Shown here: piece after piece, positions 52,975 to 54,921 of the stretch | How positions within the stretch are numbered: position 1 is the stretch's first letter | Layout: the number at the start of each line of letters is the position of its first letter | NCBI GenBank assembly: GCA_020073445.1 | Contig: JAIQFE010000005.1 | Location: forward strand, 124,001 to 188,000 | DNA length: 64,000 bases | Origin: Terriglobia bacterium | GTDB lineage: Bacteria; Acidobacteriota; Terriglobia; Bryobacterales; Bryobacteraceae | Direction of reading: 5' to 3' | The notes under the pieces: model-generated | Told to the model about the DNA's origin: nothing | Databases searched by the model: none | What the model saw: only the letters and a program-made list of their open reading frames with translations | Program-made: the position numbers and the translations under genes

Positions 52975-52997
52975 ATCACTTGCAGTATGCAAGTGAT
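52975..52997. promoter_or_regulatory. Perfect palindromic operator upstream of the HxlR gene
   Basis: Arms ATCACTTGCA (52975-52984) and TGCAAGTGAT (52988-52997) are exact reverse complements with a three-base centre. It overlaps a -35-like TTGCAG (52980-52985), which is 17 bases from TAATGT (53003-53008), seven bases before the GTG start at 53016. HxlR dimers bind sites of this shape, so autorepression is likely. Confidence 0.75.
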
Positions 52998-53015
52998 CGT
53001 TGTAATGTATTCCAT

Positions 53016-53504
53016 GTGCCCGCGAAGCCCAAGTTAGAGCGCCGGTCGGGTTGCCCGGTCAGCATCTCCCTCGAAATGTTGGGGGACCGCTGGTCGCTGC
53101 TGATCGTCCGCGATCTGATGGTTCGCGGCTATCGCACGTTCAAGGACTTCCAGGGTTCGTCCGAGAAGATCGCCACGAATATCCTGGCGGACCGCTTGAA
53201 GAAGCTCGAAGCCGCCGGCATCGTCCATGCGGAGCCGGAGACGACGGATAGGCGAAGGGTGAACTACCGGCTGACCGAGAAGGGAATCGATCTGGCGCCG
53301 GTGCTGTTGGACTTGCTGATTTGGGCGGCGCGGCATGAAGAAACGGGAGCGCCCTGCGCTCTCATCATGGACATGGAGAAGAATCGCGAAGCAGTCCTGT
53401 CTGAAGCCCGGCGAAGGTGGCGGGAACGGGACTTGACTCCATTGCTCCCTGAATTCAAGGGCAAAAAGGAGACCGGAAGGAAAACGGGAAGGGAAAAACT
53501 ATGA
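53016..53504 (+). CDS. HxlR-family transcription regulator
   Basis: 162 residues from GTG 53016; the longer open frame would run into the tRNA gene. Contains the HxlR core [39 protein letters not shown], with the conserved Cys often used for redox or electrophile sensing, then [55 protein letters not shown] wing and dimer helix. The ~45 C-terminal residues are charged. Overlaps the next gene by four bases (ATGA), so it heads a three-gene operon with its own operator. Confidence 0.93.
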
Positions 53505-54616
53505 GCAAGGTACGAGTGTTGGTCGGCACGCGCAAGGGTGCTTTCATTCTGGAGTCGGACGGCAAGCGGCAAAAGTGGGACGTCAGTGGCCCGCATTTCG
53601 CCGGATGGGAACTCTACCACGTAAAAGGATCGCCCGTGGATCCGAATCGTCTATACGCGTCGCAATCCAGCGGCTGGTTCGGGCAGTTGATCCAGCGCTC
53701 CGACGACGGGGGCAAGACCTGGGAGCCGATGGACAACAAGTTCGTGTACGACGGCGTTCCCGGAACTCATCAGTGGTACGACGGAACTCCGCATCCCTGG
53801 GAGTTCAAGCGCGTCTGGCATCTGGAGCCATCCCTCACCGATCCGGACACGGTCTACGCCGGAGTCGAGGACGCCGCGATGTTCCGCACAACCGACGGCG
53901 CGAAGTCGTGGCAGGAGCTATCCGGATTACGCGGCCACGGCTCGGGATCGCGCTGGCAGCCGGGGGCGGGCGGTTTGGGCCTGCACACGATTCTGCTGGA
54001 TCCGAGCGATCCGAAAAGGATGTACATCGCCATCTCGGCGGCCGGCGCGTTTCGCACAGACGACGGCGGCACAACGTGGAAGCCGATTAACCGGGGGCTC
54101 AAGTCCGAATACATCCCCGATCCGAATGCCGAAGTGGGGCATTGTGTTCACCGCATCGCGCTGCACCGGTCTCGCCCCAATGTGCTCTTCATGCAGAAGC
54201 ACTGGGATGTGATGCGCACCGATGACGCCGGCGAGCAGTGGCGCGAAGTCAGCGGGAATCTTCCGACCGATTTCGGATTCGTGATCGACGTCCATGCGCA
54301 CGAGCCCGAGACCATCTATGTGGTCCCGATCAAGAGCGACCGCGAGCACTATCCAATGGACGGAAAGCTGCGGGTGTACCGAAGCAAGACTGGCGGCGAT
54401 GAGTGGGAACCACTCACCAAAGGCCTGCCGCAAAGCGACTGCTACGTCGATGTGCTGCGCGAGGCGATGGCGGTGGACTCGCTCGATTCGTGCGGCGTGT
54501 ACTTCGGCACTACCGGCGGGCAAGTATACGCATCGGCCGATGCCGGGGATAGCTGGATGCCCATCGTTAGGGATCTGCCCGCCGTGCTGTCGGTCGAGGT
54601 CCAGACATTGCCGTGA
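53501..54616 (+). CDS. Cytoplasmic BNR/VPS10-like beta-propeller protein
   Basis: 371 residues, with no signal peptide. Opens [23 protein letters not shown]. Asp-box repeats: [66 protein letters not shown] and [13 protein letters not shown], so a six- or seven-bladed propeller. Sialidase catalytic residues are not evident. The stop overlaps the GTG start of the MoaD/ThiS-like gene, implying joint function. Enzymatic or binding role unknown. Confidence 0.88.
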
Positions 54617-54921
54617 GCGAAGGCATGATCCGGATCGTCCTTCCGGCGCATCTGCGAACGCTGGCAAAGATCAGCGGCGAGGTGGAGCTTGAGGTGAACG
54701 GCCCCGTTACGCAGCGGTCTCTCCTGGACGCTCTCGAAGCCCGGTATCCGATGCTGCAAGGCACGATTCGCGACCATGTCACGCAGCAGCGCCGGGCATT
54801 CGTGCGATTCTTCGCATGCCAGGAGGATCTGTCGCACGAATCGCCGGACGAGGTGTTGCCGGATGCGGTGGTGTCGGGAGCCGAACCCTTCCTGGTTGTA
54901 GGCGCGATCGCCGGGGGTTAG
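54613..54921 (+). CDS. MoaD/ThiS-like ubiquitin-fold protein with C-terminal Gly-Gly
   Basis: 102 residues from GTG 54613 (GTGA overlap with the propeller gene); ATG 54625 is possible. Beta-grasp pattern: [39 protein letters not shown], and a final strand ending GAIAGG. The terminal Gly-Gly is required for adenylation and thiocarboxylate formation in MoaD/ThiS sulfur carriers. Slightly longer than MoaD (81). No moa or thi gene is near, so it is more likely a carrier or modifier dedicated to the propeller protein. Confidence 0.88.

Follow-up and report, generated by a model that had tools for sequence, protein, structure and literature searches.

Organization of the locus

The window, the whole stretch of 64,000 nucleotides that was analysed, belongs to a Terriglobia bacterium assembly of 6.58 Mb in 102 contigs and contains a compact three-gene unit preceded by an inverted repeat (Table 1). 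The four-base overlaps given in the preliminary description are real, lying at 53501-53504 between the regulator and propeller genes and at 54613-54616 between the propeller and carrier genes, and the repeat ends 18 bases 5' of the GTG at 53016, as had been reported. The repeat had also been called a perfect 23-base palindrome overlapping the promoter. It is present at 52975-52997, but its structure is 10+3+10, with ten paired bases per arm and a three-base centre, so that 20 of 23 positions are paired rather than all of them; the overlap with a promoter was not borne out, a sigma-70 consensus scan of 52700-55100 having returned no promoter match.

Table 1. Features of the propeller-carrier locus, in window coordinates
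Feature	Position	Strand	Sequence or evidence
Inverted repeat, probable HxlR operator	52975..52997	.	ATCACTTGCA-GTA-TGCAAGTGAT
HxlR-type regulator, GTG start, 162 aa	53016..53504	+	Pfam PF01638 3e-19; Cys13 24/24
Seven-bladed Asp-box (BNR) propeller, 371 aa, 3b7f family	53501..54616	+	phmmer, AlphaFold/Foldseek
Beta-grasp sulfur-carrier-like protein, GTG start, 102 aa	54613..54921	+	C-terminal AGG; AlphaFold/Foldseek, family profile

A tRNA-Leu (GAG) gene at 52829-52915 lies directly 5' of the operator. Integration borne by this tRNA was considered and rejected: the tRNA-Leu 3' end is not repeated within the window, and among 26 loci scanned, several with only 1.5-kb flanks, a tRNA gene (the same tRNA-Leu) was found in L003 only.

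The propeller protein

The propeller and its partner are both small and predicted to be soluble. The propeller aligns with the solved protein 3b7f across residues 4-366 (phmmer, 7e-72), and its AlphaFold model (pLDDT 88) retrieves the same structure in Foldseek with an E value of 2e-34 and a TM score of 0.87, making it a member of the 3b7f Asp-box family by full-length sequence and predicted fold. Pfam matches are to BNR and Sortilin-Vps10, the best Foldseek matches after 3b7f are GH74 xyloglucanases, and the structural neighbours include peptide-bound forms, namely YCF48 with the D1 peptide, DAIP with a thermolysin fragment, and sortilin with neurotensin. In sialidases and BNR glycoside hydrolases, a FRIP-type motif precedes the Asp-boxes; the corresponding R-[ILVM]-P motif is absent from this propeller. 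No leader is visible by eye at the N-terminus, in line with the earlier statement that the protein has no signal peptide, and on this basis it is taken to be cytoplasmic. The accessible text of PMC2716378, which treats 3b7f, lists seven blades and a function that is 'not known', and MoaD does not occur in it.

Alignment of 45 family members, 28 of them close relatives, revealed 24 invariant columns. Five of these residues occupy Asp-box positions (D188, W247, G299, G349 and W352), while the other 19 fall on the loop face, defined by the author's reading of predicted strand positions as A-strand starts, B-strand ends or their loops: T10, K12, G13, G61, G121, W152, S179, G182, H217, H234, G259, P276, G308, P310, R320, G336, G340, L359 and P360. 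H162 and H146 are additionally kept in at least 90% of the aligned family. On the predicted fold, this concentration of 19 of the 24 invariant residues looks like an active-site funnel unlike that of sialidases.

Mean propeller identity is 82% across 81 rows, whereas four-fold sites match at 44%, compared with 35% expected by composition, which argues for strong purifying selection and not merely recent spread. In the propeller tree, the nearest propellers come from Bryobacterales and Acidobacteriaceae, in keeping with an Acidobacteriota host. The tree requires 23 phylum changes, against a least possible 10 and a shuffled mean of 33; with a star on just 6 of its 78 inner branches, these changes do not prove horizontal transfer. 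At G015:C3:27027-28431, a stop divides the propeller gene into two frames, and the adjoining carrier shows no stop.

The carrier protein

The carrier of the window ends in ...VVGAIAGG, preserving the Gly-Gly tail that the preliminary description had noted. Its AlphaFold model (pLDDT 90) has a predicted beta-grasp fold, for which Foldseek returned SAMP1, CysO-BexX, CysO and MPT synthase (3po0 at E 5e-6, 4n6e, 3dwg), with SAMP1 as the nearest fold. A profile of 35 carrier-family members, searched against solved structures, identified Mycobacterium tuberculosis CysO at 5e-20 and also SAMP1 and the carrier of the BexX/CysO complex. At E<=0.1, ThiS was matched by 31 and SAMP1 by 33 of these 35 members. 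By family profile and predicted fold, the carrier is thus of the CysO/SAMP1 type, a membership resting on the family since the window protein by itself has no Pfam match at 0.001 and scores below curated cut-offs (17.4 versus 22.5 bits in the genome scan, and 13.5 of 60 bits for SAMP1).

The Gly-Gly is kept in all 76 complete carriers among L032-L111, the loci of the best 80 of 591 relatives, being terminal in 72 and followed by 1-14 residues in 4. Among 48 distant carriers, it is terminal in 34, followed by further residues in 13 (including a fusion and a run-on) and missing in one. The exception, beside a Nonomuraea propeller (L132:4584-4895), ends in PALA. In another distant locus (L145:1-1872, minus strand), the carrier continues in frame without a stop past its Gly-Gly into a TypA/BipA-type GTPase (Pfam GTP_EFTU, BipA_C).

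Linkage of propeller and carrier in close relatives

Named genome contigs were scanned for relatives of the propeller, and the best 80 of 591 confirmed relatives, a non-random set of full-length matches at ~80-87% identity, were examined. By NCBI title, these 80 loci cover 11 phyla, with 46 from Acidobacteriota. Of these best 80 of 591 relatives, 78 have a carrier match; L067 and L080, which lack one, lie on contigs that run out within 200 bases of the propeller's stop codon, and two further carriers (L033 and L060) are cut by a contig end. The carrier follows the propeller in the close types, and the distance between them exceeds 100 bp in three loci: L045, L066 and L097. In L066, a Planctomycetota locus, a DoxX-like gene (L066:6120-6611) separates the two.

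Co-occurrence was evaluated in 247 genomes of the window's phylum, with a propeller called at >=70% identity, a carrier above 100 bits, and the split copies of G015 and G197 counted. A close propeller is present in 35 genomes, a close carrier in 36 and both in 35, so that their presence and absence coincide in 246 of 247 genomes (Fisher p 8e-42, a value that ignores kinship). The one discordant genome, G285, has a carrier truncated at base 1 of its contig. The pair proposed in the preliminary description is thereby strikingly conserved in related genomes and passes the refuting condition set there: all 35 with a close propeller have the carrier, within 100 bp in 34 and 1.76 kb away in G140. 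Carrier remnants in G083 (with stops) and G134 (partial) were left uncounted, and neither genome has a close propeller. Across 76 loci, propeller and carrier distances correlate with a rho of 0.41, a value reached in 0 of 2000 permutations; shared ancestry alone can explain this correlation.

Distant relatives, order swaps and fusions

Propellers of only ~30-48% identity also neighbour members of the same carrier family, as established with a profile built from close and distant carriers and a requirement for the same strand within 1 kb. Propeller-family matches (E<=1e-20) occur in 88 of the 247 sampled genomes of the window's phylum, and the distant propellers of this phylum have an adjacent carrier in 37 of 40 loci (L144-L183); the carrier of L148 is shortened, and none was found in L146, L150 or L173. 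The first distant set (L112-L127) yielded a carrier in 7 of 16 loci, L117-L123, and not in L112-L116 or L124-L126, while L127 is broken and has its carrier on the opposite strand. A first profile, made from close members only, had recovered just 4 carriers in L112-L133, and the count rose with small-ORF reading and the mixed profile, so the early absences were partly a sensitivity effect. Adjacent carriers were likewise found in 7 of 11 plasmid loci fetched, on two plasmids as a neighbour annotated as a MoaD/ThiS family protein. In Actinomycetota, 43 of 149 sampled genomes have a propeller match, and 26 of the best 30 loci have a carrier, including all 11 with close-type propellers.

The carrier of distant types may stand upstream or downstream of the propeller, which indicates that the linkage has outlived changes in gene order. 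Furthermore, natural carrier::propeller fusions occur in 4 of 97 loci scanned (L144, L211, L214 and L216), each with the carrier first and in one frame, and with ...SGG placed 5-30 residues before the propeller.

Among genomes whose propeller stands alone, G007, G011 and G012 have their only carrier match with JAMM and cysteine-synthase-like genes (a CysO operon), and G006 has no carrier match; G416, G435, G335 and G452 have two matches each, of which one adjoins a cysteine-synthase-like gene and the other lies elsewhere. In Rhodobacter, a propeller lacking a carrier (L219:1-1983) is found next to egtB and egtD of ergothioneine synthesis.

Candidate sulfur-transfer machinery elsewhere in the genome

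Consistent with the preliminary description, the locus has no MoaE: the sole match in the genome is on another contig, C83, beside a ThiS-family match. The presence of this other neighbour is also in line with the expectation that the carrier would not serve ordinary molybdopterin synthesis, a role that was rejected on this ground together with the co-occurrence of the pair in the 247 genomes. According to Pfam, the same genome holds a cluster (G000:C21; L135, 311-3123) of a cysteine synthase-like PLP enzyme, a JAMM protein, a CysO-like carrier and an E1-rhodanese protein. This CysO-like carrier ends in GG-AL and would therefore need trimming itself. The genome has four ThiF-family matches, one of which includes a rhodanese domain and adjoins a ThiS-family gene. 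The G000:C21 and MoaE loci together indicate that an E1 and a potential trimming protease are present, and that the window's carrier is not the neighbour of MoaE.

Prok-JAB genes were found in all nine genomes tested (the window's, four with fusions and four with extended tails), compared with 8 of 14 controls; being this common, they lend weak support. An E1 lies near the pair in 3 of the best 80 of 591 relatives, where 0.3-0.5 would be expected by chance (P 0.004-0.012), an excess that is suggestive only. In L105, the order is propeller-carrier-E1/rhodanese on one strand; L040 has convergent JAMM and E1 pieces, and L103 has an E1 upstream on the opposite strand. No E1 was found in the other 62 + 35 loci scanned, most of them with shorter flanks.

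A proposed two-subunit enzyme and the competing explanations

The propeller labelled 'sialidase' and the carrier that adjoins it or is fused to it in many soil bacteria probably form one unrecognised enzyme. The best reading gives the pair an MPT synthase-like architecture in which the large subunit has a new fold. More specifically, the explanation preferred here, held at slightly under an even chance, takes the propeller and carrier as the large and small subunits of one enzyme, a dedicated sulfur acceptor and donor. A MoeZ/MoeB-type E1 encoded elsewhere would adenylate the C-terminal glycine of the carrier and load sulfur as a thiocarboxylate; the carrier tail would then dock on the propeller's loop face, the site of the 19 invariant residues, and the propeller would spend the sulfur on a substrate. 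Where residues follow the Gly-Gly or the carrier is fused, a JAMM-type protease may first free the Gly-Gly end, as in fused MoaD-MoaE. The proposal builds on the observed linkage, co-occurrence, order swaps, fusions, Gly-Gly retention and predicted folds, on the E1 and JAMM genes of the genome and on the gene order of L105. Several observations weigh against this enzyme. The window's locus lacks an E1, a rhodanese and a JAMM protein; an adjacent same-strand carrier is missing from 9 of 16 loci in L112-L127, 4 of 11 on plasmids, 4 of 30 in Actinomycetota and 3 of 40 in L144-L183; and the L132 carrier lacks its Gly-Gly. Fusions and tails running beyond the Gly-Gly would stay uncharged unless cut, which counts against a donor. 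For comparable natural fusions, such cutting is on record: the accessible part of PMC4326299 reports that MoaX, in which carrier and catalytic partner form one chain, becomes functional only after cleavage between Gly82 and Ser83, and the accessible part of PMC8832034 reports that a Deinococcus JAMM protein cuts MoaD-MoaE and leaves a C-terminal glycine.

The carrier could instead be purely a structural or regulatory cap, or a tuner, of a propeller that binds small molecules or peptides, with the Gly-Gly as a docking motif and no sulfur involved. The Gly-Gly displaced from the terminus by fusions and extended tails, the distant carrier that has none, and the peptide-bound forms among the propeller's Foldseek neighbours would suit such a role, which is possible though doubtful, given that the Gly-Gly persists in 47 of 48 distant and all complete close carriers and lies near the junction in fusions, as in MoaX; the JAMM genes in 9 of 9 genomes tell against it weakly, since controls have them too. 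Ubiquitin-like tagging, in which the carrier's Gly-Gly would be conjugated to the propeller or to other proteins in a SAMP- or Urm1-like manner and a JAMM protein would reverse the conjugation, draws on SAMP1 being the nearest fold and matching model and on the JAMM and E1 genes in the genome. It is unlikely: the tagging raised in the preliminary description gained no specific backing within the window, where none of the seven ORFs given to Pfam (51092-59543) is an E1, E2 or JAMM protein, no more than 3 of the best 80 of 591 relatives have an E1 or JAMM nearby, and the constancy of a single partner gene from phylum to phylum points to a dedicated acceptor rather than a general tag. The donor-acceptor enzyme is preferred over both the non-catalytic subunit and tagging because the propeller fusions share the layout of MoaX and MoaD-MoaE.

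Two more conventional accounts fare worse. That the protein is a spare carrier serving molybdopterin, cysteine or thiamine synthesis and linked to the propeller by chance would agree with its CysO/MoaD type and is very improbable: MoaE already has a ThiS-family match as its neighbour, the PLP enzyme, JAMM and E1 genes of the genome are accompanied by a CysO-like gene, and the presence of the close carrier tracks that of the close propeller in 246 of 247 genomes. Least probable of all is an ordinary sialidase or glycosyl hydrolase with an unrelated small neighbour. Database records named exo-alpha-sialidase or sialidase family protein, the BNR and Sortilin-Vps10 matches and the GH74 xyloglucanases point that way, but this reading was rejected on the lack of a leader by eye, the missing FRIP-like motif and a partner that is a carrier; the linkage to that carrier is far above chance, and the nearest solved protein, 3b7f, has a function given as 'not known' in the accessible part of PMC2716378.

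Comparison with known systems

MPT synthase, whether as MoaD-MoaE or fused as MoaX, resembles the pair in joining a small Gly-Gly carrier to a dedicated larger partner, and its natural fusions also have the carrier first and the Gly-Gly near the junction, with cutting after the Gly-Gly known for these forms (accessible parts of PMC4326299 and PMC8832034). It differs in its large subunit, which is MoaE, whereas that of the pair is a seven-bladed Asp-box propeller. With CysO-CysM and CysO-BexX, the pair has in common a carrier of the CysO type by profile and predicted fold, the BexX/CysO structure 4n6e being among the matches; the fold of the acceptor and the dedicated linkage set it apart, and a CysO-like gene is retained separately in the genome. 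BexX makes use of CysO that a shared E1 has charged. The AOR-linked MoaD clusters described in the accessible part of PMC1779556 likewise place a carrier gene strictly beside one enzyme gene, sporadically over phyla, but their partner is an aldehyde ferredoxin oxidoreductase that needs a tungsten cofactor. The Asp-box propellers of the 3b7f type share both fold and sequence family with the window's propeller.

Among the papers listed for the pair's parts in open PMC text, no title or abstract opening describes a propeller-carrier pair. Neither BNR nor propeller occurs in the accessible main text of the surveys PMC1779556 and PMC2948915, and the accessible part of PMC1949818 mentions a propeller once, in a figure legend that labels a domain co-occurring with beta-grasp domains.

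To our knowledge, the acceptor enzymes of protein thiocarboxylates are of few kinds: ThiG, MoaE, CysM, tRNA thiolases and BexX. We tentatively suggest, at rather less than even confidence, that the large 'sialidase'/BNR family represents a new class of protein-thiocarboxylate-dependent enzyme with the first beta-propeller sulfur acceptor, making a sulfur compound in soil bacteria, sometimes under electrophile-sensing control. If true, a further acceptor fold would imply that common soil bacteria have a sulfur pathway that has gone unrecognised, the common annotation 'sialidase' would be corrected, and a function would be suggested for the solved structure 3b7f.

The HxlR regulator, its probable operator and possible signals

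The regulator is a clear HxlR match (PF01638, 69 bits against a cut-off of 20.8). The preliminary description had treated it as part of the module; its homologues (E<1e-30), however, occur in only 15 of the best 80 of 591 relatives, all 15 titled Acidobacteriota, with a weak HxlR match in the Chloroflexi locus L109. Since the spread over phyla and the order swaps belong to the propeller-carrier pair alone, HxlR stands outside the core module, as an accessory of Acidobacteriota that comes with a conserved, probable operator. An anti-phage system was rejected, as PADLOC returned no match for the propeller or carrier and only a weak Csa3 match for HxlR (5e-4).

Searched with <=3 mismatches, the arm sequence of the repeat has a single occurrence in the window and none in 100 shuffles; with <=1 mismatch, the core is confined to one place in the whole assembly. 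Conservation at HxlR loci is better evidence for an operator than this rarity. After L001, L002 and L035 were dropped as partial or duplicate, 24 HxlR loci were examined, and an ACTT-N9-AAGT core was found 5' of 21 of the 24 homologues, most often at -38; L003 has a variant, and L047 and L062 have none. No copy of the core stands in the 300 bp preceding the propeller at any of the 83 loci without HxlR, a few of which are the same genome fetched twice. Cys13 is kept in all 24 HxlR loci. By sequence comparison, the repeat is a well-supported candidate for an HxlR operator. L046 and L054 have two operator-like copies 5' of HxlR, ~40 bases apart.

In the window's genome and in other Acidobacteriota, HxlR would add local control of the pair through this operator. 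By analogy with the HxlR family, it may act as a repressor that senses electrophiles, and the unit may be induced by stress. Some close loci adjoin glyoxalase-, YCII-, AHSA1- or ArsR-type genes. A neighbour survey of the best 80 of 591 relatives plus the window, in which one or two genes per type were named by Pfam, gave raw counts of 14 VOC-type ORFs in 12 loci, 9 YCII in 9, 9 AHSA1-type in 4 and 6 ArsR in 6, together with 11 sigma-factor ORFs in 11 loci, the window's own included. The recurrence of these neighbours may hint at the inducing signal. AHSA1, ArsR, YCII, VOC or sigma-factor genes neighbour the close pairs of L106, L111, L089, L086, L059, L105 and L032, which belong to several phyla.
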